The notes beneath the pieces are model-generated. The model did no database searches and was not told the origin of the DNA. It worked only from the letters and a program-made list of their open reading frames with translations. The position numbers and the translations under genes were made by a program. 22,033 bases of DNA from a virus: positions 1 through 22,033 of the IMG/VR virus record IMGVR_UViG_3300009605_005691. One strand, written 5' to 3'. This document shows, one piece after another, positions 498 through 21,700 of this stretch (position 1 is the stretch's first letter; every line of letters starts with the position of its first letter).

Positions 498-776
498 TCA
501 TTGGTCTAACCCCAACCTCTTTACCATTGGGTAATTGTGACTAGTCATTATACCACCTTTATATTCTTTCCATATTCCTAATACTTCTTCTTCACAATCA
601 GCGCATATCATTTCACCATCTTCCATTTCACCAACGTTCGGTGAATCACAATCAATACACTTCCACATCTTCCTCCGCTGTGCGATAGTAAAGAGAGGGA
701 TATCTAACTCTGTAACAGGGTTGTAGTATCCTCCTTCACATACGTATCCTTCTTCACAATCTCTGCATATCTTCAT
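498..776 (-). CDS. Small zinc-ribbon protein, 92 aa
   Basis: A cysteine-rich acidic protein. Two CxxC knuckles, C40/C43 and C58/C61, separated by 14 residues, form a classic zinc-ribbon arrangement; C4, C7 and C13 near the N-terminus could contribute a second site. No membrane segment is present. Zinc ribbons of this size usually bind nucleic acid or protein, and small ones are common in phage early regions; the exact role cannot be read from the sequence. The start codon has an excellent Shine-Dalgarno (AAAGGAG, 6-7 bases upstream) and is served by promoter P2 (811-839), with P3 (908-936) further upstream. The identification as a zinc-binding protein is fairly safe; any function in transcription is inference. 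Confidence 0.85.
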   Translation of the reverse strand: MKICRDCEEGYVCEGGYYNPVTELDIPLFTIAQRRKMWKCIDCDSPNVGEMEDGEMICADCEEEVLGIWKEYKGGIMTSHNYPMVKRLGLDQ

Positions 777-795
777 TGTTTATCTCCTTTCTTCC

Positions 796-852
796 CTAAC
801 TTCTAATACCATTATAACAAGAAAGGTTACGGTTGTAAAGGTTTATTTTCAT
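796..852 (-). repeat. 57-base promoter repeat, copy 2
   Basis: This is the second copy of the segment at 404-460 (46 of 57 identical). It contains promoter P2. The differences fall at all three codon positions of the short frame that runs through it, which fits conservation as a DNA or RNA signal rather than as protein. Confidence 0.8.
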
Positions 853-2352: not shown

Positions 2353-2593
2353 TGTAAAGATAGTCCTGTAAATCTGCGTGGAACCTATTCAACTTACGAT
2401 AGTAGGTCATTCTGGATATACCGGTATCCTTCTTCTTTCCAAACCAATTAGACAACCTCATATTGTTACTCGGGTTCCAAGGAATTTCTTCCAGTTTAAG
2501 AAGAGCCTTAAAGAAGAACTTCTCCTCCTCTGTTCTGTCCTCACTGGACATAAACTTATAAATCTTCTCTATCGTTTCTCTTTCACTCATCAC
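2339..2593 (-). CDS. Small protein with helix-turn-helix-like C-terminus, 84 aa
   Basis: The N-terminal half is an acidic helix (residues 3-36). Residues 47-68 (starting LSNWFGKKK, ending SRMTYYRKL) look like a helix-turn-helix: a first helix, a turn at DTG (56-58), and a recognition-like helix rich in Arg, Tyr and Lys. The gene starts ATGATG and overlaps the stop of the 370-aa gene by four bases (ATGA), so it is translated together with it. A small DNA-binding regulator or a factor that recruits the polymerase-like protein is plausible. The helix-turn-helix call is by eye only. Confidence 0.7.
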   Translation of the reverse strand: MMSERETIEKIYKFMSSEDRTEEEKFFFKALLKLEEIPWNPSNNMRLSNWFGKKKDTGISRMTYYRKLNRFHADLQDYLYNGTE

Positions 2594-3702
2594 TTAACTC
2601 CTTTTGTCTGTGATTTATTAACCATCTTAATTCTAAAATTTGTGTCTTTATAAATGAAACTTTCTAAATCATTTAAATCAATTTCATCCTCACTCATAAA
2701 ACCATCAAACATTAACACATCAACTCTATGTCCTTTCTTCTCACAATATTTCTCAATTGATTGTAAGATTTTATCTTCGTGATACTGTGCTATCAATGCT
2801 AGAAACCTTTTATTATTATTGTCCGCTTTATCCCATAGCGGAGCATACCTTGAATCCCAACTTAATATAGTTGATAGGTCATACAGTTCTTCTTTAAGTT
2901 TTGAGAGGTTTGGGAAGGCTTCTTTCAACCTATGCATATCTCCTACAATATCCTGCATAGACTTACCTCCTATCGTAGCACCAAACATAACTGCTAAACA
3001 TATCTTCTTTTGTTCTTTGTAGGTTAAGTCAGTCTTATCAAAGGTTTGCTTAAAGAAAGTGTTTCGCTTTGTCGCATATTGGTTTAGTGTTTCATATTCT
3101 AAACCTTTAATCATCTGGTTAAGGATTGTCGGTAAGGCATTTGCCATATCGTAATCATTCAGTTGTGGGAAAAGATAGTCCCTCAGGTATGAGGGTAGTT
3201 GCTGCACACCACAGCCAACAACAAACCTTCTTCCTCCCTCACCAAAGGTGCGCTGATATGTTTCATAAATGAAACCATCTTCATTAATCCTCTTGTAGAG
3301 GAACTGAACGGGGATTAAGTGGTGTTGCTTTTCAACCTTGAAGGCACCTGAAAGGACTTCTTCAAAGCGTTTCTTATTGGGTAGGACTTTGTAATTGTTA
3401 GGTAAGGGGGTGGATGGGGCTACATTCCTTAACAGTTTGGCTGATTGCTTAATCTTTTTAAGAGGTCTATAAGCCTTTGTAACTCCCTTGACACCCTTTG
3501 TTCCTTTAATAAAGTTGTTATCAACAACCTCAAAGTATTCAGATAGGTAATTCTTATAGCCTCCACCAAATACCTTCTGCCACTTCGAAGCATTGAGTGG
3601 TCCGAAGTCCTTGTTATTAGGGTGGAATTTGTGCTCATTGATTCGGTTGAAATATAATTGACCGATAATGAAGTTTCTTTGTTCTGATGTTAGTTTGTTC
3701 AT
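2590..3702 (-). CDS. Putative polymerase-like (palm-domain) protein, 370 aa
   Basis: No named family is certain, but three motifs occur in the order seen in DNA/RNA polymerase palm domains. A motif-A-like NDYDMANALPTIL lies at residues 182-194 (D183, D185). A motif-B-like QKKICLAVMFGATIGGK follows at 231-247, ending in the F-G seen as YG in family A and B polymerases. A motif-C-like LMFDGFM lies at 330-336 (D333). The segment just before motif A (QQLPSYLRDYL) also looks conserved. The N-terminal 160 residues are basic and may bind DNA. At 370 aa there is no room for a proofreading domain. The ATG has AGGAG ten bases upstream and a promoter at 3738-3767, so this leads the lower module and its downstream genes are coupled by ATGA. 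Alternatives: a primase-related replication protein, or a nuclease with a coincidental DxD. Certain as a gene; the polymerase call is moderate. Confidence 0.85.
   Translation of the reverse strand: MNKLTSEQRNFIIGQLYFNRINEHKFHPNNKDFGPLNASKWQKVFGGGYKNYLSEYFEVVDNNFIKGTKGVKGVTKAYRPLKKIKQSAKLLRNVAPSTPLPNNYKVLPNKKRFEEVLSGAFKVEKQHHLIPVQFLYKRINEDGFIYETYQRTFGEGGRRFVVGCGVQQLPSYLRDYLFPQLNDYDMANALPTILNQMIKGLEYETLNQYATKRNTFFKQTFDKTDLTYKEQKKICLAVMFGATIGGKSMQDIVGDMHRLKEAFPNLSKLKEELYDLSTILSWDSRYAPLWDKADNNNKRFLALIAQYHEDKILQSIEKYCEKKGHRVDVLMFDGFMSEDEIDLNDLESFIYKDTNFRIKMVNKSQTKGVK
3394..3410. repeat. 17-base repeat, copy A
   Basis: ATTGTTAGGTAAGGGGG on the plus strand, identical to 4354-4370 and one base different from 4005-4021. 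This copy lies inside the polymerase-like gene, where it encodes part of TPLPNN on the minus strand. It is followed by further G runs (TGGATGGGG). Confidence 0.75.
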
Positions 3703-3737
3703 TCCTTGACGTCTCCTATGACTTGGTTTGTAATACT

Positions 3738-3767
3738 ACTATACCACAAAAGTAAGTAGTTGTTTAA
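3738..3767 (-). promoter_or_regulatory. Sigma70-type promoter P4
   Basis: On the minus strand, -35 TTAAAC (3767-3762), 18-base spacer and -10 TATAGT (3743-3738) with TG one base before the -10. The -10 and the bases after it (TATAGTAGTATTA) match P1 (TATAATAGTATTA) closely. It lies between the terminator at 3786-3818 and the polymerase-like gene at 3702, the expected place for the promoter of the lower module. Confidence 0.65.
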
Positions 3768-3785: not shown

Positions 3786-3818
3786 AAAAAAAAACCCACC
3801 CTCATTTGAGAGAGTGGG
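3786..3818 (-). terminator. Rho-independent terminator of the late block
   Basis: On the minus strand CCCACTCTC and GAGGGTGGG form a 9-bp stem with a 6-base loop (3818-3795), followed directly by nine T residues (3794-3786). On the plus strand one pair would be a C-A mismatch and there is no T tail; on the minus strand the same pair becomes G-U, so the orientation is clear. It ends transcription coming from the structural genes. Confidence 0.9.
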
Positions 3819-3939
3819 AAAGGTAGCATAGTTAAATCAGTTTTAGGAGACGTCGTTTAAACAGCAGGAATGAACATCCCAGTTGCTTCCTTTTTTTTAC
3901 GGAGAGAGGGGGAATGTCAAGAACCCCCTATGAGAACTA

Positions 3940-3950
3940 ATCACCTCCTT
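3940..3950 (-). promoter_or_regulatory. Perfect Shine-Dalgarno without a gene behind it
   Basis: On the minus strand AAGGAGGTGAT, an 11-base complement to the usual 16S rRNA 3' tail; on the plus strand the same bases read as that tail (ATCACCTCCTT). No ATG, GTG or TTG follows at 5-13 bases. A GGGGG/CCCCC hairpin follows instead. It could be a leftover ribosome site, a decoy, or chance. Confidence 0.5.
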
Positions 3951-4004
3951 CGTCCTCATATTTTAAATATACCAGATTGGTAGAAGTTTGTTCAGATGTT
4001 GTTG

Positions 4005-4021
4005 ATTGTTAGGTAAGGGAG
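4005..4021. repeat. 17-base repeat, copy B
   Basis: Matches ATTGTTAGGTAAGGGGG with one change (A at the sixteenth base). It lies in the untranslated stretch and is followed by more G runs (AGGGGTGGAGG). Confidence 0.7.
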
Positions 4022-4072
4022 AGGGGTGGAGGTTTTTAGATGAAAGGATAGATATAGGAGGAGGGTTAGTTG

Positions 4073-4180
4073 ATGTTAAGGTGTGTTGATATTGATAAAA
4101 TAATTACAGTATTACTGAAACAGATTAAGAAAGATGACAAAAAGAAACTGAAAAAGATTTACTATATCATTCAGTCGTAG
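4073..4180 (+). CDS. Possible plus-strand 35-aa basic peptide
   Basis: This is the only candidate gene on the plus strand. An ATG at 4073 is preceded by AGGAGGAGGG, with the last GGAGG eight bases from the start, an excellent ribosome site. The peptide begins MLRCVDIDKIITVLLKQIKK and continues with a run of Lys (KKDDKKKLKK) and a hydrophobic end (IYYIIQS), forming an amphipathic basic helix. It converges on bS21 and overlaps its 3' end by 14 bases. I see no clear plus-strand promoter, and the purine tract that forms the ribosome site could be part of the repeat-linked G-rich sequence instead. Confidence 0.35.
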   Translation: MLRCVDIDKIITVLLKQIKKDDKKKLKKIYYIIQS

Positions 4181-4343
4181 AGTTATGATGCCTTCGTGCT
4201 TTTCTCTTCAAGTAACGCCTTCTGGATTTACTCTGGTGGTATCTCCGATCTTTGATTTCTTCTACTAGTCCGGTTTCTTTACACCACTTCTTCCATGCAG
4301 CAATTGCTTTCCAAACTTTATTATCTTTTACTGGGAATTCCAT
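4167..4343 (-). CDS. rpsU: Phage homologue of ribosomal protein bS21, 58 aa
   Basis: The 58-aa product matches the bS21 pattern: a short N-terminal strand (MEFPVKDNKV), a helix with aromatic and basic residues (WKAIAAWKKWCKETGLVEEI, residues 11-30, aligning with the family's ALRRFKRxxEKxGI), then R33-R34-Y35 and a strongly basic tail (SKSRRRYLKRKARRHH). bS21 sits on the 30S platform beside the 16S rRNA 3' end and helps mRNA start-site recognition; phage-encoded bS21 genes are known and are thought to replace the host protein in ribosomes. I translated it base by base: ATG 4343-4341, stop TGA 4169-4167. The ribosome site is weak (AGGA about 8 bases upstream), and a 17-base repeat copy lies 11-27 bases upstream. 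It is the last gene before the late terminator. Alternative: another small basic RNA-binding protein, less likely. Confidence 0.8.
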   Translation of the reverse strand: MEFPVKDNKVWKAIAAWKKWCKETGLVEEIKDRRYHQSKSRRRYLKRKARRHHNSTTE

Positions 4344-4353
4344 TGTATATCCT

Positions 4354-4370
4354 ATTGTTAGGTAAGGGGG
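4354..4370. repeat. 17-base repeat, copy C
   Basis: ATTGTTAGGTAAGGGGG on the plus strand, identical to 3394-3410. It fills the gap between the stop of the 40-aa membrane peptide (4371-4373) and the bS21 start, where it would be part of the bS21 leader RNA. Confidence 0.75.
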
Positions 4371-4493
4371 TTACCTGTTCCTTATAAGGATTACTACTGC
4401 AGTTAACAATGATATGATGCCAACGCATATCATAAAGGTATTGCCTAATTCAACTATGATTCCAGGGTCTAGACACATAGGTACAGTTTCCAT
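4371..4493 (-). CDS. 40-aa single-span membrane peptide, holin-like candidate
   Basis: The ATG (4493-4491) shares one base with the stop of the 142-aa gene (TAATG) and the frame ends at TAA (4373-4371). The N-terminal 18 residues are polar to mixed (METVPMCLDPGIIVELGN), then about residues 19-36 are hydrophobic (from TFMICVGIIS to VVILI), and the end is RNR. The basic C-terminus and single span suggest an N-out, C-in membrane peptide. Its place near a coiled-coil/membrane protein in the late block fits a small holin or lysis accessory, but no family is recognised. Junction type and hydrophobicity support it as real. Confidence 0.65.
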   Translation of the reverse strand: METVPMCLDPGIIVELGNTFMICVGIISLLTAVVILIRNR

Positions 4494-5337: not shown

Positions 5338-5658
5338 TCAGTATCCCTTTACATCTAATTCAGGTTCAACATCTCGTTGCAATGATTTAAGCGAGTCTAC
5401 AACTTTTTGTAGATCCTTCTCATATCGTTTACCTTCTTTAGATTTGGGTTTCCACTGAACAATTAACGCTTCTAACTTCTCAACAACATCAGGTGTAGGC
5501 ATGCCAGGAGGTCCAACTTCATCAACGATGCCGGGTATCTTGGTTAACTTACCTTCTTCAATTGGTGCGCCCGCACTATTACCCCCATGGGGATTGCCCA
5601 TTAATCGCCGCTCTATTTCATTAGCAGCTTCTCTGCGTCTCTCATATGGTAAAGCCAT
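5338..5658 (-). CDS. Hypothetical protein, 106 aa
   Basis: Unrecognised. The N-terminus is a charged helix (YERRREAANEIERRLMG, residues 5-21), followed by a Gly/Pro-rich linker (GNPHGGNSAGAP, and VGPPGMPTP near residues 48-56) and a C-terminal helical region (PDVVEKLEALIVQWKPKSKE and onward). The ATG has a strong AGGAGG seven to eight bases upstream. It lies 12 bases after the 108-aa gene and upstream of the XhlA-like gene, in the late block. The helix-linker-helix layout is common in small virion or assembly proteins, but this is no more than a guess. Confidence 0.8.
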   Translation of the reverse strand: MALPYERRREAANEIERRLMGNPHGGNSAGAPIEEGKLTKIPGIVDEVGPPGMPTPDVVEKLEALIVQWKPKSKEGKRYEKDLQKVVDSLKSLQRDVEPELDVKGY

Positions 5659-6024: not shown

Positions 6025-9000
6025 TTATTTTTTACTACCTTCCCCTGATTTCCCAGTGTGGTGGATAATCTCAAGGATTCTCTTCTTTTCAGCAGCAAGC
6101 TCATTTTTAATTATATGATCAATCATAGCTGCTTTTTCTAGATACATCTTTGCCTCACTTGTCTGACCTAGTGTTGACAGTTTCTTGGCTTTTATTTTCA
6201 TCTCTCTAGAAATAGATGATCTTAACCCAGACCCAACCTTCTTAAAATAATTATTAACCTTTTCTTTGGTATCAACCTTCTGCCAACCTCTACCAGTAAT
6301 CTTCCTTACAGCCCACCTAGTAAAGTCTTCTACGTCTGTTGAGTCATCAGCAATTGCATACCTTCGAGTACTCCATTCAGAAGTTGGATCAGCAGAAGCA
6401 ATTGCTATATCCATAACCTTATGTACGGCGCCTCCGAACATGACCATACCAAAATCACGATATATTTCAGCCAAGGTAGGATCAGTAAGTCTTCTTTCTC
6501 CAGTTGATACTTCTTCTAGGAAGTCAACAAAAGGACCGCCGGCTAAACCAGCTAGTCTTGTTACGTCTGCTATACTCCAGTACTGATTAGCCTCATTCTT
6601 AAGTACCATCTTCCGAACTGTTAGGATCCTCTTCCTTTCTTTTTCAGGCAAAGTTTTAAGTTCCCAATCAATACCACCGTCTTTTAGTATTGGATATAAT
6701 TCTCTTAACCCTTCTTCAGTTCTTAAGTTTGGATGTGCTGCTCTATGAATTAAGCCTTGTATAATCCCCAACACCTTTAAGGTTGGCTCTCCAAAGTTAA
6801 CACTTTCCCACCTATTAAATTGTAAAAACTCAGGATTAGTAATGTCTTGCAATAATACAGGTGAAAGATTCCCTGGTACTCTCGTCAGTATCTTTGCTAC
6901 TTCATCACGATCCTTATCCATCAATGCATTGCGCATACCATTAATGGACATGACTCTTCTTGCAGATAGCTTAAGTGCAGCCTTATCCTGCATCCTGCGT
7001 ACTTTTTTATTATTAGTATAGCCGGCTATCTCTTCACCACCCGGCAATATTGCAGATAATAGTCCAGGCTTACCCGGCATATCTACTGCCTTATGTTGCC
7101 AAATGTAGAATGGTGATGCAGTACCAACTATTGGTGCAGTTCTTAATGCTTTAGCATATAATGAAGCTTCACTATAATCAAAGAACAATGATTGTGCTAT
7201 CTTGGAAGCAGCATCTACTACAACTTTTCTATACTCTTTTTCGCTAAGTTGCTTGGTACCTTCGGGAGTTTTTAATTCCCAACCTTCTTTAGTTTTAGCA
7301 AGTATACCTTTCCTATCTTTTGTCATTTCAAGCACATAAAAATCACCTATCTCAAAATGACGAAGTTGATTTCGAAGTGATATTATACCTCTTAAGGCTT
7401 GATCAAACTTAAAGATGTTATCACCAAAACGATATAAACCAGTTAATGTCTTTTGTGCAGTTAGTTTTCTCCAAGTCTTTCCCCAATAACTTGCAGCAGG
7501 ATTCTTAAGGGATCCCAACTCAGCCTCTACAACAGTTGTATTTAACAACCCTGAGGCTTCTACTTCCTTAAGGAAAGGCTCTAAGTCTGCTAAATGACTA
7601 GGTAATTTACCTTCCAAATATTGCTTATATACAGTTCCACTATCAACTAGATCGGCTATGACACCTAGTGGACCTTTTCCTCTCTTTTGGCTCTGTACAA
7701 AAACATTTGCCATGAAGTTTGTTACTGTAGCACTAGGGTTCAAAGCAGTAAGGTGCGCCTTAATACCTGTTGTGATTCTCCAAAGCATGCTATTAGCATC
7801 TCTAGCAGTATTCAAAGTCTTGATATGCCAACTTAGAGTAGAGTTTAAACCACGATTAACTGCAGTAACATCACGCCCAACATAATTACGAATGATGCCC
7901 TCGGGTGGTTCATACTTGCTGAGAGTACGAATAAGTTTATTGATTCTTAAGAGGTTATCTGCATAATCAAGATGAGTATACCCTATACTTTTAACATATT
8001 TATCTTTATTTGCTTCTAGCTCTTCTAGAACCTGAGCTAATTTAAATCTCTTAATTGATTGGGGAAGCATTTCATTATCAAGTAATGTGCCTCTGACTAT
8101 ATTTCTAACATAATCAGTTATTTGTGTTCCACCTTCTTTATTAAAAAAGCGTGTAGATTCTGTGTGAAGTCCTTGTCTTAATTGGCGTCGTTGTATATCG
8201 GCAGCAACTTCATAACCAATCTGCATCCAAGCCTCTGCTCGTATATCTTTCTTTATTTCTGCAGGAAGCTTCTCGACAGTGTCTGTTATTAACTCCATGG
8301 TACTAATCACTTTACCATTTGGAAGCTCTAGTCTATATTCAAACACACCCTCAGTAAGTGATGGTTCAACCATGTTATTAAGAATTCTATTCCACTCCTT
8401 CTTGGGGACTGCAGGATCTAGTTCTGATAATCTATCAATAACTAAATCTCTAACTGTCTTATTTCTTAACCAGTGTACTGACTGATTATGGAATATATTT
8501 GCTAGGATTCTATCAGCAAACCTAGGCGGCATGCCTTCTCCGGGGCTGACAGCCCTATCTACAATGTTCCATATCTCCCCAGCAGGCTCAGTTGTTTTAA
8601 GGATATCTCTTGCGCCCTCATTCCCATAATGCTTCTCTATGAGCGCTTTAATTTCATTCATCACCCCCTGAACTTTTGGATCTTTGTAAAAGATTTCTGG
8701 AATTTTACTAGTCCATTGTTTACTAGTCACATACTGTGCTACAGCAGCAGCATCATCCCATGCTTTTCGTTGCATCATTGCGTTTGCTTCTTTCCTGGAC
8801 ATGAAGCCACGATCAACAATTTTATCAACCATCTTTTTCTTCATTTCTCTAAGGCGAAGATTACCTACAGTATCATGAAGCCATGTACTTGGATCTTCCA
8901 TATGCTCTTTGAGCCTTCTTTCAGCAGACTCGATAAATCCACGTTCAGTTTCTAGAATTGTTTCCGAGACAGGCGGATCCATTGCTTTGAGTCTAGCTAG

Positions 9001-12000
9001 GCGATCTCTCTTTTTCTGCAAGTCTAGTTCTAATTTAGTACTATCTTTAATTTGAATTTTGCCAGGAGTAGGATCTGATAGGTCGTCTAGCATTTCTCTA
9101 TATGGATTAGTATTATAAAGCTTGCCATTCTGTACTCTAAGTGTGATACTCTCCTTCTCGCCATAAATCCAATCATGGATAATCAGATCTTGCACTTCTA
9201 GAATATCTTCTGGTCTGATCTTATCACCAAACAACTTCTTAACCATAGCATCCCATGCTTCTTTGCTTTGTTTATAAAGTGGTTCAATTGGGATTCCACC
9301 GTGGAATTCGACAGTACTAATAGGATCTAGACCATGAGTAACTCTTTCTTCAACAATTGCTGCTATTGCTTGTATATTTCTCTTTGTTTGCTTCTCTCCT
9401 GTTGATATCACATGAGGTCTTTTTGGAGGCTCCCAAAACCATTCACTTCTTAACTCTATTGGTTGAGCACCCGGAGGTGCGATACCTGTAGCCGGATCCG
9501 TCCGGTACGACTCAATGCTCTTTACTGTTGCACCTTTAGGTTGCCAAAAACTTTGAACTTCGGGAGGTGCATTAAGTTTCATTAGTTGATCTTGAAGGCG
9601 AGTAACAATATCAACCATGGTTAAGTTATAAGAAAGAATAGGCTGGACTGGATGTCCAACACTTAGGTCAGTCATTGGAGGTTCTCTAAATAACTGTTTA
9701 CTACCTTGAGGACCATATTGATCTAAAATTTTAAGCCCTTCTCTACTAAAAGTAATAGACCAATCAGGATGCATTTGATTAAATTGTTGCACCATAAAAT
9801 TAAGCTGATCTACTACAGCATCAAGTACTTTTACATTACTAGCTGCTGCTCGTACTGCTTCAGGTAGTGGCTCTAAAGATTTACTCTCAGCTTCTGCAAG
9901 TCTAGCTTGTCTAGTTTCAAGAATATGATCATATAAATCTTTATACAGGCTAACTACAGGTTTTGCTCTAGTTCTTGTACGTCCTGTAAATGGCAGGTTC
10001 TTAAGGAATTCACGCATATCAAGACCAGCATGAAACTCTTTAGGTTCTTTATAACTCTCTATGAGCTTGTCATATTTTCTTTTAAATGCTTCCTGTATAC
10101 CTAGTTCTTCAATCAAAGATGCTTGAACACTAAAGGAAGAGTATTTTTGCGGCTTGGGATATTTTTCTCCAAGTGTAAAGCCATACATGTGAGGTGCATC
10201 TTTTTTACCCCAGGCGCCGTCATAGACTACTCCTAGCTTCTTAAGGATCGGTTCTAATTCTTTAAGTAATTCTGGTAATGGCACACCAGCACGCATTAAT
10301 TTAGGATCAGGTTCCCCTTCTTTGATTGGCTTATCTTTTTCTATATCACGCCTTCTCTTTTCTGCCCTTCTAACTTTAGCAGGATCTTTGATCTTCGGTT
10401 CGACCACACGGACTTGTCGCTCCTGTCTAACCCTTTCGACTAAACGCTCTCCTTGTTGAAGAAGAACTCTGTTGACGTCTTCAATACGATCAATATGTTT
10501 ATATGCTTCCTGAATCGCTTGCCATGTCGCTTCAGTAAGTGGTTCTGGACCAAGTACGCCTCCTTCCGTTCTAGCGTCAATTGCTCTTTGAACGTCCTCA
10601 ATCTCTTTCAAGTTGTCTCTTATCCGTTGTTTGAGAGTATCAAGATCTCTTGCCGTCGATGCCGTCGATGGCTCTCTAGGTGGCTTAGGTCTAGGGAAGA
10701 ATTCAGGTTCACCCGGAAATCTGCTCTCAACAACTTCACCAGTACGAGGATCCAACCTCTCAAGATTCTTGTATGTTAGTTCGGGATATCTTCCTGACTC
10801 AACTAATCCTTTAGTGAGTGGATAATCAGTTGCTGGTCTAGCGCCTAGTCCTCTTTCGTAATATCCTTGAGGAGGTTCTCTGAGTTTTGTTGTAAGTGGA
10901 TCGATCTGTCCTTCTTCGAAAGCTTCCCGATATTCTGCTGCTTCTTTTGCCTTAGCCCTTTCACTAAGAGTAAGTTTAGCTTCTTGTGCTAGATCAGACT
11001 CTAATTCTAGCGCTGCTCGACGTGCTCCTCTAGGAATCGGAGGCGGCTTTATTTCAACTGCGGGTGGACCATATCCTGATTCTGGGGGAGGTACAGGAGG
11101 CTTTGTAGGCACTTCAACAATGTCTGATGGTTTTATACCTATTACTTCCCCGGGTGGCGGAGGAGGGGTACCAGGGGCTGCAGGAGGTGCAGGTGGAGGT
11201 ACGTCACCCTCATATCGTGGTTTACCTACTTCCTCACCTCTTTTGATTCTTCGATAGATATCGCCAAATAATTGCTCAACCTCTAATCTTGCTCTTGTAG
11301 GCTTTTCAATTGCTAGCTTTTTCCAATATTCAATATTAAGTGTACCATCAGCATATGAATCATTCCACCATCTTAAAAATGCTGATGAAAGTTCAGGTGA
11401 TATTCCTAGAGACTGAGCAATATCAACACCAATTCTAGAAGCCTGACCAGATGCATATCCTTTTCTAAGTCTCTTGAGCGCTTCAACAGAAATTTCAATT
11501 GCATTACTAGCCTTAAGCCAACCTTCTATTTTGGCTGCATGTTCTGCTGATACAGTGCCTCGCATCTTAGCTCTAGCAAGACCGGTCTTAAGAATGGGGC
11601 TTAACATTAAAAACATTAACCATGGACGTGCGGCTAATGATCTTGGTATATTACGAGGATCTCCAAAGAATCCTATCCCACCAACCATACCAGAGACTAG
11701 TCCTCTTCCTAACTCTTGTCCTCTTTCTCCTTGAGTGGCAACATAGTTCCAATAGGAATTCTTAAGTTGTTTTTGATCTGCCTTGGTGATATCCTCAAAG
11801 CCCAAACCCTCAGACACTAAATGCCAAAGGATCTGGATTGTGTCAATAAAGTCTGTACCGAAGTTCTCTAATGCAACTAGTTGAGCATCTATAAGCCCTG
11901 AATTAACCATGGCTCTATCGACATTACCAAACCTTTCCTCAATATCTTTTTCAATCTGGTCATATGTTTCAGGAGTTAATGATAGTTTTCCATCTAATGC

Positions 12001-12795
12001 ATCACGAAGTAATTGTTCTTCTTGCTTAGGTGTTACTACAGCAACAGCTTCCATTCCCGTTCTAGCAATTTCTTCAAGTGCACCTGCTGCAGCACCTCCC
12101 AGACGCATAGCAGGTACCATAAGTCCCCCTGCGCCTAGGGATGTTTTATGATCTTCAATCCACTTTTCTTCATTCCACCCACCACCACCAAAGTCTGGGT
12201 GATTAGGATTAGGCTTATAACCTATGGGTCCTCCTGCTACGCCTCCAAATCCCTGTAAAGGCGTATCCGATATTGCAGCAAGACCTCCATGCTTATAAGC
12301 ATATCGTATTAGTGCAGCTTCTTTTCGAGCCTCTTCGTTATCTAGAGCTTCTGCTTCTGTCTTTGCTCTAGCCTCTTGTTCGCTAATGAACTCTTGAGTG
12401 GCTGCCTCGGGAATATACTTTTTTCTACTTACCTCAACCCGTTCAGGCTCTATTAATCTTCCTGTTGGAGCAACACCATATTTCCGGATATAAGCTTCTC
12501 TAGCTGCGGCTTCTGCCTCAGTAACATCTTCTTCTTTATATTCAACTCTACCACCACCTGCTCCAACCCGGGGACCAACAGCATAACCTCTTTCAGCAGC
12601 AGTTGCAGCAGAAGCTCCTTCGGCTTCTGCAGTCCATTTACTATGTAATTGGTGTAGTTCGAATATTACCTGTTCTGGAGGTAATCCTATACTATTGACA
12701 AACTCAACCCATTCTGGTGAATTTTGACTTTCTTCGAATAGGATCGCATCGATGTCACCGACGTTACCTTGTCTTAAGGTGAGGGAGTTAGCCAT
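6025..12795 (-). CDS. Giant internal virion protein, T7 gp16 position, 2256 aa
   Basis: This one gene fills nearly a third of the window. The N-terminal quarter is mixed helical with a short hydrophobic segment (RPWLMFLMLSPILKTGLA, about residues 389-406). Residues about 530-588 are Pro-rich (PPPAPPAAPGTPPPPP and later PPPIPR), a flexible linker. A long charged helical centre follows. The C-terminal third has motifs common in large phage ejected or polyvalent proteins: LNPSATVTNFMANVF (about 1687-1701), RFGDNIFKFDQALRG (about 1786) and PIVGTASPFYIWQHK (about 1885). It follows 189- and 654-aa genes, the order of T7 gp14-gp15-gp16. I find no clear lytic transglycosylase motif. It starts two bases after the 654-aa stop with no good Shine-Dalgarno, so it relies on coupling. 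Role inferred: ejected with DNA and helping genome entry. Confidence 0.85.
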   Translation of the reverse strand: MANSLTLRQGNVGDIDAILFEESQNSPEWVEFVNSIGLPPEQVIFELHQLHSKWTAEAEGASAATAAERGYAVGPRVGAGGGRVEYKEEDVTEAEAAAREAYIRKYGVAPTGRLIEPERVEVSRKKYIPEAATQEFISEQEARAKTEAEALDNEEARKEAALIRYAYKHGGLAAISDTPLQGFGGVAGGPIGYKPNPNHPDFGGGGWNEEKWIEDHKTSLGAGGLMVPAMRLGGAAAGALEEIARTGMEAVAVVTPKQEEQLLRDALDGKLSLTPETYDQIEKDIEERFGNVDRAMVNSGLIDAQLVALENFGTDFIDTIQILWHLVSEGLGFEDITKADQKQLKNSYWNYVATQGERGQELGRGLVSGMVGGIGFFGDPRNIPRSLAARPWLMFLMLSPILKTGLARAKMRGTVSAEHAAKIEGWLKASNAIEISVEALKRLRKGYASGQASRIGVDIAQSLGISPELSSAFLRWWNDSYADGTLNIEYWKKLAIEKPTRARLEVEQLFGDIYRRIKRGEEVGKPRYEGDVPPPAPPAAPGTPPPPPGEVIGIKPSDIVEVPTKPPVPPPESGYGPPAVEIKPPPIPRGARRAALELESDLAQEAKLTLSERAKAKEAAEYREAFEEGQIDPLTTKLREPPQGYYERGLGARPATDYPLTKGLVESGRYPELTYKNLERLDPRTGEVVESRFPGEPEFFPRPKPPREPSTASTARDLDTLKQRIRDNLKEIEDVQRAIDARTEGGVLGPEPLTEATWQAIQEAYKHIDRIEDVNRVLLQQGERLVERVRQERQVRVVEPKIKDPAKVRRAEKRRRDIEKDKPIKEGEPDPKLMRAGVPLPELLKELEPILKKLGVVYDGAWGKKDAPHMYGFTLGEKYPKPQKYSSFSVQASLIEELGIQEAFKRKYDKLIESYKEPKEFHAGLDMREFLKNLPFTGRTRTRAKPVVSLYKDLYDHILETRQARLAEAESKSLEPLPEAVRAAASNVKVLDAVVDQLNFMVQQFNQMHPDWSITFSREGLKILDQYGPQGSKQLFREPPMTDLSVGHPVQPILSYNLTMVDIVTRLQDQLMKLNAPPEVQSFWQPKGATVKSIESYRTDPATGIAPPGAQPIELRSEWFWEPPKRPHVISTGEKQTKRNIQAIAAIVEERVTHGLDPISTVEFHGGIPIEPLYKQSKEAWDAMVKKLFGDKIRPEDILEVQDLIIHDWIYGEKESITLRVQNGKLYNTNPYREMLDDLSDPTPGKIQIKDSTKLELDLQKKRDRLARLKAMDPPVSETILETERGFIESAERRLKEHMEDPSTWLHDTVGNLRLREMKKKMVDKIVDRGFMSRKEANAMMQRKAWDDAAAVAQYVTSKQWTSKIPEIFYKDPKVQGVMNEIKALIEKHYGNEGARDILKTTEPAGEIWNIVDRAVSPGEGMPPRFADRILANIFHNQSVHWLRNKTVRDLVIDRLSELDPAVPKKEWNRILNNMVEPSLTEGVFEYRLELPNGKVISTMELITDTVEKLPAEIKKDIRAEAWMQIGYEVAADIQRRQLRQGLHTESTRFFNKEGGTQITDYVRNIVRGTLLDNEMLPQSIKRFKLAQVLEELEANKDKYVKSIGYTHLDYADNLLRINKLIRTLSKYEPPEGIIRNYVGRDVTAVNRGLNSTLSWHIKTLNTARDANSMLWRITTGIKAHLTALNPSATVTNFMANVFVQSQKRGKGPLGVIADLVDSGTVYKQYLEGKLPSHLADLEPFLKEVEASGLLNTTVVEAELGSLKNPAASYWGKTWRKLTAQKTLTGLYRFGDNIFKFDQALRGIISLRNQLRHFEIGDFYVLEMTKDRKGILAKTKEGWELKTPEGTKQLSEKEYRKVVVDAASKIAQSLFFDYSEASLYAKALRTAPIVGTASPFYIWQHKAVDMPGKPGLLSAILPGGEEIAGYTNNKKVRRMQDKAALKLSARRVMSINGMRNALMDKDRDEVAKILTRVPGNLSPVLLQDITNPEFLQFNRWESVNFGEPTLKVLGIIQGLIHRAAHPNLRTEEGLRELYPILKDGGIDWELKTLPEKERKRILTVRKMVLKNEANQYWSIADVTRLAGLAGGPFVDFLEEVSTGERRLTDPTLAEIYRDFGMVMFGGAVHKVMDIAIASADPTSEWSTRRYAIADDSTDVEDFTRWAVRKITGRGWQKVDTKEKVNNYFKKVGSGLRSSISREMKIKAKKLSTLGQTSEAKMYLEKAAMIDHIIKNELAAEKKRILEIIHHTGKSGEGSKK

Positions 12796-18714: not shown

Positions 18715-21700
18715 TATCTACCCTTCCTCCTTCTACCACCTGCGGGACGAATTGTAGCCTTTGCAGACTCAATTTCTAATGATTCCCCCGGAGCTTGCAT
18801 ATGTCCAAAAAGCATCCATGAAAAGTATTCACCTTTAACCGATGTTGACATGCAAATCGTATCATATTGTTCATCATCAATAAGATAGTTTCCTCTAGAA
18901 GATGCTGAATCACTACCCCAATATATAGAGGGATTGTGGAAGGTCTTTTTTCCAACGGTATTGGAAGCATCATATATTCTGCTTCTGATATTATTGGCAT
19001 TAACACCGGTATTCTCATCAAGAATACTTTGAATATCTTTATTTATTTCAGTATCTTGGTAATCAATAAATTGAGATACCCAGTCTTTCCAGTCGGATCC
19101 CAGTACAGCATTCAATTGTCCGTATATGCACTGAGATTCTTCTCGGGCTTTACCGGTAGTTGCAACTCCATGAGCTTTGACTCTAAGCCACAAGCTTCTA
19201 GCCTTTACTTGTGCTGCTTCTTCTAATCCAATTTGGTCTGATTTATAAACCCAATCGATAGGTTGCTGAGGATCACAAGTTTCATTGGGTACGGTACCTC
19301 CAGCAGATTTACCTTGCCTCCACGTCTTATCTAGATAGGAAGGTTCAAAGTGAAAGAAGTCACAAAATTGGGTACCATAACTCGCATGATTAGCGCCGGC
19401 AGCAGTAGCAGTTCTAGAATAATAGGCAGCAAGTCCTGTAATTCCTGCTGACATAACATCATTTGCTCCATCTGCAGGATAAGAAGTGCCCTGAGCATTA
19501 GTACCTGTGAGATTACCCCCGGTATAATAGATTGGAAGCCACATCAATAGGTTTCTATATCTCCTATTAACATTCATTCCATCATACTGATATGATGCTA
19601 AAGCTCTAATCTGATCGTGACTAAAGACAGCATCAACTTGCCAACCATCTCTTCCAAGTATCCATCCACCACCACCTCCTCCTTTTTTAACAAAGATGCC
19701 GTGTGATCCCGGTACCGGAGCAGATGTATCGGATCCCCATCCACCCATTGAGCGTACTCTTTCAGGAGGGAAGATTGCATTAATCTGATAATAATCATCA
19801 AGTGAGCTTAAGCTATTTTCTCTAAAATAGAAAGCCCAATGCACATTATCAAAATCAAAATTGAGTTGCAAGTCAGTGGGTAAGCCAGGAAATGAAGCAG
19901 CTATATCTGTTGCGACACTAGGGGCTGATGAACTCCACGACGTATCAGGTGTAAAGTATACTGGTACTAAAAATGATTTATCATATAGCACTGTATTCTG
20001 AACGCCTGCTCTGCTTCTAGGTAATAGGGTACCTTTTTTAATTGGTACCCATTCACCAATTTCAAATAACCCTTGTCTAGTTGTGTTGTTATCTGTATTA
20101 TAGTCGCCATCAGGATTGAAATACCAGCGTCCTTGAGCAACTCTACGGTCCTCAACAACCCTATCTTTTGTTGTATATTGTACGCTAGTACCATTATTCT
20201 TTGCAATAACAGTTCTATCAGGAGATCCTCCTCTCCCATATTCTAATATGTAATATGAACCACCCTGTGTTTGTGTAGTAGGTTGATTAGTTAGACTAGT
20301 AGATGCTGGATTGGTACCATCCTTTCCAGTAATAAACCGAGCAGCATTAGTAATATTATATCTGTCAGGAGATCCAATTAGATATAACTGGTTTTCTCCC
20401 ATGACAAACCATGGATTATCAACGTTCTTTATAGCTTCAGGGTTAGTAGTAGCTGCAATTGATTCGAAGTTCCACACACTCCAACCACCACTATTCCAAA
20501 TCATAGCTATATTTTCTTTAGGAATAGAAAATATTAAGCTCTTTCTTATATGATCAAAGGTGATATTTACTTGTTCAGAATCAAATCTAAAAATCAGATT
20601 GCCCTGATCTAGTGTACCAAGAGAAGCGTTAGATATGATACCACTATTATTAAAGAAATTTGAAAGAGGATTGCTGATATAATCAGTAAAAAGCTTCTCT
20701 ATACCTTTTGATATGGTATTAATTGACATGCCATTACTGGTCGTATATACACCATTTGTATCAATCCATAAAGCAGAGCCTTCAGCAGTAACAATTGTGT
20801 TTGGACTAACACAGCCAATTTGATTAGAAACTTTCTGTAATCTACCTGCTGAGACTATAACTCCAACAGAAGGCTGATAATAAAATGTTTCATTCTTTGT
20901 GAAAATAAGAAGATTGCCATTCAACTCTTTTATTGCTGTGATTGGATTTTCTGAAGATATTCGAAGTATATTATCAGCAATGATGCTGGTGGGATTACCA
21001 ATATCACTAAAGTAGACTGTAGTTTTATCTACATAAACAATACGATTTAACACTGAGGTAATGTCAATAGGGTTGGGAAATTCAGTCTCTGTTAGGTAAG
21101 CGTATGCATCAGCAAAGTCACCATCACGGGGCGCAACTCTTCGCAGTCTGGAAGATTCAGAGTAACCAAGCGCCCAATCGTTGTGACGCACACCATCCGT
21201 TGATTGAATTCGAGATCCTTCAAATACTGCTGGGATATAAGCTAAAATACCTGTCCTAGAGTCACCTAGGAAAAGTGTGTCATTAACCTCTTCAAAGAAG
21301 AACGCAGCATCAGAGTCTGCAAATAGGTTTGTTTCTATATCATCTTGGAAGTATGTCTCATAACGACCCCTTAGATCTCTCATATTGTTAGTATCACCCT
21401 GCCAGTTACTACCATTTAGAGCAACGTTATTTGTATTTGGATGTACTATCTCTTCCCATACTTCATCTGTGGTGATATCATAAATTGATACCATATAGGC
21501 TAGAACGTATTGTCCTACTCGTTTTGACTTAGATACAATATTGACAGTATCCTTGCCTCCTAGGCTACCAGTAAATGTTCTAATTAAACCAATAGTGATA
21601 ATTTGTTCGTGCCCAAAGTTAGTTTTAATATATCTAGAGCCAACATGCTTGATAAATTCCCAGTCATCCCAACCTATTGTTGTATCAAATTGGGAGTTTT

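Follow-up and report, generated by a model that had tools for sequence, protein, structure and literature searches.

Reports exist on phages that carry a gene for the ribosomal protein bS21. Chen et al. (2022, PMC9723584) have put forward the hypothesis that a phage bS21 favours late messages. Mizuno et al. (2019, PMC6375957) have shown that the bS21 of HTVC008M enters E. coli ribosomes and that in vitro translation is then poor (~5% of protein). That assay is the sole published functional test of a phage bS21 in ribosomes. For gene e of phage T4, the Shine-Dalgarno (SD) sequence and AUG have been reported to be closed in long early transcripts and free in short late ones, with a 100-fold effect (PMC3014915). 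The c4 RNA of P1 and P7 blocks the ribosome binding site of its target (PMC12197685; Rfam RF01695). Here we describe a phage whose bS21 gene is followed by a non-coding stretch carrying the mirror image of the start site of p370, a gene that lies beyond the terminator. Coordinates of the features are collected in Table 1.

Genome and gene order

The window, by which we mean the whole stretch of 22,033 nt that was analysed, was taken from an IMG/VR record, and a second contig, G001 (L001), was used for comparison. G001 matches the first 12,252 bases of the window at 99.8%, and L010, the opposite end of G001, overlaps the window on its right side, giving a circular map of ~33,815 bases (~33.8 kb). 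Positions 1 and 22033 of the window are joined by L010, and the complete gene order is readable though both records are classed as linear fragments. The phage is of podovirus type, ~34 kb in size, with all main genes on the minus strand. Their order is TerL (T4-type), a scaffold-like protein, capsid, a P22/SU10-like portal, tail-type proteins, a 2256-aa protein, small genes, bS21, the terminator and small early-type genes. The 2256-aa protein (6025-12795, minus strand) is without any Pfam match, and its middle part varies in length and sequence among relatives (2377 aa in L031). Within the 12 kb overlap of the two contigs, 16 substitutions are packed in ~45 bases (5551-5596) inside p106 and 6 lie elsewhere; the dense block reflects either local recombination or a mixed assembly.

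Relatives at 80-98% were found in several datasets. None of them covers the junction between bS21 and p370, and the longest, G009, stops inside p142, two genes before bS21. Searches of IMG/VR with bS21, p370, the C-terminal part of the 2256-aa protein, p83 with p53 and p142, the early proteins and the antisense pattern recovered the junction only in G001, the other contigs stopping short. A distant relative, G014, in which no bS21 was seen, has an M15 peptidase (endolysin type) after its corresponding large protein.

In the window, bS21 is the last gene of the TerL-capsid-portal-tail block and so lies among the core structural genes. The preliminary description had placed it last before a late terminator, and the sequence agrees: the 348 nt between the two are non-coding, and the terminator is of the intrinsic type. 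The same description had set the gene after a lysis-like cluster, a label that is only weakly supported. The 40-aa peptide p40 has a single strong membrane segment and p83 a weaker one, and the M15 peptidase of G014 mildly supports calling the small genes here lysis-like. Lysis families were unmatched, and p40 matched no family.

Table 1. Positions of the features around bS21 and p370 in the window
Feature	Position	Strand	Basis or detail
p40, 40 aa, membrane peptide with one span, before bS21	4371..4493	-	hydropathy 2.78 over 19 aa
Weak SD (AGGA) of bS21	4350..4353	-	16S-tail duplex -4.0 kcal/mol, among the genome's weakest
bS21 (rpsU-like) CDS, 58 aa	4167..4343	-	PF01165, phrog_21469, two-helix model, codon score
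Non-coding 3' stretch, bS21 stop to terminator, 348 nt	3819..4166	-	no coding signal in six frames
Promoter-like site TGAACA-17-TATATT, extended -10	3966..3994	-	8 such sites vs 8.3 expected, not above chance; weak
Hairpin, 9-bp stem, 14-nt loop GAAGGAGGTGATTA	3929..3960	-	-9.7 kcal/mol, z -3.3, 0/200 shuffles as good
Second hairpin, GGGGG/CCCCC	3908..3928	-	fold
Antisense block b TGTTCATTCCT	3866..3876	-	perfect complement of p370 start-codon region AGGAATGAACA (3706-3696)
Antisense block a GACGTCTCCTA	3844..3854	-	perfect complement of p370 SD region TAGGAGACGTC (3718-3708)
Late intrinsic terminator, 9-bp stem then nine T	3786..3818 (stem 3818-3795)	-	sequence
Promoter P2 of p370, TAAACA-17-TATAGT, extended -10	3738..3766	-	three-copy motif member
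Target TAGGAGACGTC-A-AGGAATGAACA, p370 SD and ATG	3696..3718	-	antisense duplex
p370, first early-type gene after the terminator	2590..3702	-	ORF

The bS21 gene

The profile search that the preliminary description proposed against the bS21 family gave a match to PF01165 (Ribosomal_S21) with an E-value of 3.3e-7 and 30.4 bits, which passes the Pfam gathering cut-off of 27. The ORF also matches phrog_21469, "ribosomal protein S21" (6e-5). Against TIGR00030 it scores 27.7 bits, just under the NCBIfam equivalog cut-off of 28.95, a score that backs homology rather than strict equivalog status. A profile built from four viral bS21 proteins, this ORF and three others, matches bS21 chains in the PDB at an E-value of 1.8e-7. 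AlphaFold2, run with the four sequences, predicts two helices at residues 8-24 and 26-57, with a pLDDT of 73.5 and a pTM of only 0.34; a Foldseek search of the PDB with this short model returned no match. The absence of a family match or of the two helices had been set against the assignment; the match was found, and two helices are predicted at moderate local and low global confidence. Codon use is of the late-gene type in frame 0 only (+0.165; the five remaining frames score -0.13 to -0.33), and the gene in G001 is identical to the copy in the window. The EEIKDRRY core is common to other viral bS21s, and the usual KPS after the conserved RRY is lacking here. A tblastn search of INPHARED with this bS21 gave nothing. 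A second viral bS21 was unmatched as well, and the low-complexity filter was active on both of these K/R-rich sequences, so that the null result is no evidence of absence.

The family match above cut-off, the PHROG match and the coding-type codon use bear out the description of a convincing homologue. On this sequence evidence the ORF is confirmed as a real bS21 homologue and a rather divergent member of a class that, as had been said, is not new, given the PF01165 match and the phage bS21s published from late blocks. The protein could also be a bS21 descendant that is no longer ribosomal, such as a basic nucleic-acid-binding protein for the virion or for DNA packaging. Its very basic composition (18 K+R among 58 residues), its divergence and its place at the end of a structural operon would fit such a role, which we nevertheless consider improbable, as the EEIKDRRY core is kept and the Pfam cut-off is passed.

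A 14-nt sequence, CCTTACCTAACAAT, occurs in three exact copies within 1 kb on the minus strand: inside p370 (3394-3407), in the stretch 3' of bS21 (4005-4018) and just upstream of the bS21 ATG (4354-4367). The number expected is 0.13 with 2 mismatches allowed. Copies with one mismatch lie in TerL (L010 9009-9022, plus strand, and 9424-9437, minus strand) and are largely kept in relatives.

Shine-Dalgarno use and host

The phage start sites have a median SD duplex of -7.4 kcal/mol, vs -2.7 kcal/mol at control ATGs (p = 2e-12), and 14 of 31 reach -8 kcal/mol or better. Such strong SD use speaks against both a Bacteroidia host and the hiding of the anti-Shine-Dalgarno (ASD) sequence that has been discussed for large phages of Bacteroidetes (PMC9723584). 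The F. johnsoniae chain (7jil) was among the weakest PDB matches of the viral bS21 profile. Scans of GTDB with the bS21 and portal alignments found nothing, and a tree from the 58 residues of bS21 would be of little use for naming the host. Within a 1037-aa gene, GGAGGAGGTGG (19667-19687, minus strand), which encodes part of a glycine run, matches the 16S tail slightly better (-18.4 kcal/mol, 19682) than the hairpin loop downstream of bS21.

The non-coding stretch downstream of bS21

The 3' stretch matched no Rfam family at gathering threshold, and a permissive scan gave sub-threshold matches only. Two of these, a Betaproteobacteria toxic sRNA (22.6 vs 50 bits) and preQ1 (17.9 vs 39), were dropped for falling below threshold, and a small plus-strand gene in the stretch was dropped for want of a coding signal. 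The loop of the first hairpin (3960-3929) contains AAGGAGGTGAT (3950-3940, minus strand), 11 nt that pair with the common 3' end of bacterial 16S rRNA with 0 mismatches. An exact match of this type is expected ~0.016 times per 34 kb, and its duplex with the ASD has a predicted energy of -18.0 kcal/mol. The preliminary description had noted an ASD match beside bS21. The match is real and perfect; it sits 217 nt past the stop codon of bS21, on its downstream side, and in the transcribed strand it reads as an SD-like sequence that pairs with the 16S tail. It belongs to a non-coding, RNA-like stretch that also holds an antisense feature which that description did not report.

The RNA from this stretch might serve chiefly as a ribosome decoy. 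Its loop would pair with the 16S 3' tail and, together with the phage bS21, withhold 30S subunits from host messages or dock the antisense RNA on ribosomes. A perfect 11-nt complement in an exposed 14-nt loop, adjoining the gene of a protein that sits beside the 16S tail, would suit this role, and in Flavobacteriales extended SDs act together with bS21 in regulation (PMC9976891). However, the stronger match inside the coding gene at 19682 (minus strand) indicates that such matches also arise without function, and the AGGA in the loop could equally bind a CsrA-type protein; we regard the decoy as very unlikely.

Upstream of the hairpins, the promoter-like site at 3994-3966 could, by its sequence, start a separate RNA of ~170 nt. 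The predicted fold of such a free small RNA is not unusually stable (z -1.2).

Antisense blocks and the p370 start site

Two 11-nt blocks near the end of the non-coding stretch are perfect complements of the SD and start-codon regions of p370. The predicted duplex between the antisense stretch and the p370 start site has an energy of -38.4 kcal/mol, vs a mean of -17.9 (sd 2.7) and a best value of -30.9 among 1000 shuffles of the same stretch. The best of the other phage start sites tested reached -24.9 kcal/mol. No further copy of either block was found in the ~34 kb map.

The terminator and the promoter P2 both sit between the antisense arm and the p370 start site. The -10 region of P2 and the bases after it read TATAGTAGTATTACAA, and the motif TATA[AG]TNGTATTA[GC]AA has exactly three copies in the map. 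Each of the three (-10 at 3743, 816 and 424) stands shortly upstream of the start of a gene that follows the late terminator, namely p370, z92 and e122. P2 is most likely an early promoter, where "early" is read from the gene order and the host-type promoter. Directly upstream of e122 and z92 lies a 79-bp repeat (379-457 and 774-849, minus strand; 77% identical), which by its sequence is a duplicated early-type promoter and leader sharing the motif of P2.

Folding predictions for the p370 start site differ between the two possible transcripts. The SD is predicted to be unpaired with a probability of 0.82 in the P2 transcript vs 0.00 in late read-through, and the AUG with 0.34-0.44 in the short form vs 0.001. 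At twelve other start sites in similar context the value for the SD ranges from 0.10 to 0.82. The predicted gain from duplex formation in trans is -25.5 kcal/mol. Since the two contigs are identical over the junction and so give no covariation signal, the claims about RNA rest on one genotype, folding energies and shuffles.

A competing account is a plain bS21 gene beside a role-less remnant, the 22-bp complementarity being left over from a duplication of the p370 start site in inverted orientation. The plus strand of the antisense stretch reads TAGGAGACGTC, a spacer of 11 nt instead of 1 nt, and AGGAATGAACA, as a template-switch duplication would give, and this plus-strand copy even starts a 37-aa ORF. 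That ORF, however, falls where no coding signal is seen, the two 11-nt blocks have kept their perfect complementarity and cover the SD and the ATG exactly, and a terminator and an early-type promoter stand between the arms, an arrangement also seen in T4 gene e. On balance we judge a remnant unlikely, though it is an account to be taken seriously.

The inverted repeats could also act as DNA, serving a regulator around P2 as operators or for looping, with the SD-like loop unrelated. The arms do flank P2 and the terminator, block a holds the palindrome GACGTC, and the dispersed copies of the 14-nt repeat occur here too. Yet neither block is copied elsewhere in the ~34 kb map, and the match ends on translation signals rather than on promoter elements, which leaves little room for a role as DNA.

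As for p370 itself, it matched no family in Pfam or PHROG and nothing in the PDB, and its single-sequence model has a pLDDT of 34. A hypothetical protein of Erwinia and Dickeya jumbo phages, matched at an E-value of about 0.01, was not significant and was set aside. The strings YDMANALPTIL and VLMFDGFM may resemble polymerase-type motifs, for which profile, PDB and fold searches give no support. Genes that come first behind an early promoter often serve replication or takeover, and for p370 such a role would be a guess.

Proposed mechanism

The bS21 protein is a loosely bound, exchangeable ribosomal protein. The phage version would be made late and be exchanged for the host protein on the platform of the 30S subunit, close to the 3' tail of the 16S rRNA. 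The swapped-in protein would then bias initiation in favour of late phage messages, which are abundant and in many cases carry a strong SD. We hold it probable that bS21 acts in such a late takeover of the 30S subunit, with incorporation and bias as its inferred steps. Family membership, the predicted two-helix shape, the closing position in the late block and the SD use of the phage speak for it. The proposal, which the preliminary description had also made, agrees with the published hypothesis of Chen et al. (2022, PMC9723584), and the HTVC008M assay (PMC6375957) counts against it.

The second part of the proposal concerns p370. Early in infection, p370 would be made from P2 with an open start site. 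Late transcripts would run past bS21 into the 3' stretch with its mirror image of that site and end at the terminator; those that read through would lock the p370 start site in a 22-bp helix. The RNA that stops at the terminator, or a short one begun at the 3994-3966 site, may also pair in trans with P2 transcripts. With a strong terminator behind the antisense arm, the majority of late transcripts would stop there and leave the arm free to act in this manner. The complementarity is perfect, a terminator and a promoter separate the arms, and the site is predicted to open and close; all this is consistent with such a switch, to which we give roughly an even chance, the existence and action of the RNA being its conjectural steps.

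Taken together, the closing part of the late operon would supply bS21 and at the same time turn p370 off, and this combined explanation, a bS21 takeover with a p370 RNA switch, is the one we favour, with some reserve. A tighter version would make the locus a single ribosome-takeover module, in which, late in infection, the phage bS21 alters the 30S platform while the 3' RNA, anchored to the 16S tail by its SD loop, shuts the p370 start; this version seems to us doubtful.

If the RNA switch is real, a late operon ends its own early phase by carrying the mirror image of an early start site before its late terminator, and a simple, testable RNA logic is linked to a ribosomal protein gene. A direct test of phage bS21 function would also come from an RNA that shares its transcript and may contact the same part of the ribosome.

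Comparison with known systems

Phage bS21 genes in late blocks have already been published, and the RNA part of the locus appears to be new. The combination of a late bS21 gene with a 3' antisense switch on a start site appears undescribed in PMC6375957, PMC9723584, PMC7029224 and PMC8163748, as far as the parts reached in most of them by search terms go. In the searched text of PMC9723584, terms for non-coding or untranslated elements found none.

The phage bS21 genes of Chen et al. (2022, PMC9723584) and Mizuno et al. (2019, PMC6375957) likewise lie in a TerL-capsid-portal block, were inferred to be late and come from uncultivated viruses. The complete phage genomes of Chen et al. are 293-331 kb, with predicted Bacteroidetes hosts that do not use SDs, whereas the phage here is ~34 kb and SD-using. 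A small SD-using phage thus joins the carriers of bS21, and ASD hiding as in Bacteroidetes cannot be the general reason for a phage bS21. The bS21 of the pelagiphage HTVC008M belongs to the same Pfam family and has a similar start (VK-N-V-KAI) and core; the siphovirus Kolga also has an S21 gene (PMC8163748). In the same kind of search the HTVC008M protein scores 65.7 bits vs 28.9 here, and it keeps YYEKPS where the present protein has YHQSKS.

The switch proposed for p370 resembles T4 genes e, soc and 49 (PMC3014915), where a start site is closed in transcripts from upstream and open in those from a promoter between the arms; here the likeness is in silico, and clear for the SD. The timing is reversed relative to T4 gene e (closed late, open early), a terminator stands between the arms, and the upstream arm would be releasable as a separate RNA. 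With c4 the locus shares complementary blocks aimed at a ribosome binding region and the potential of a separate RNA to act in trans. It differs from c4 in giving no match to the RF01695 covariance model and in being attached to a late bS21 operon rather than to an immunity region. The extended SD of rpsU in Flavobacteriales (PMC9976891) likewise ties a 16S-tail complement of exceptional length to a bS21 gene, whereas here the complement lies in a 3' hairpin loop rather than at the start of bS21, where the SD is weak.
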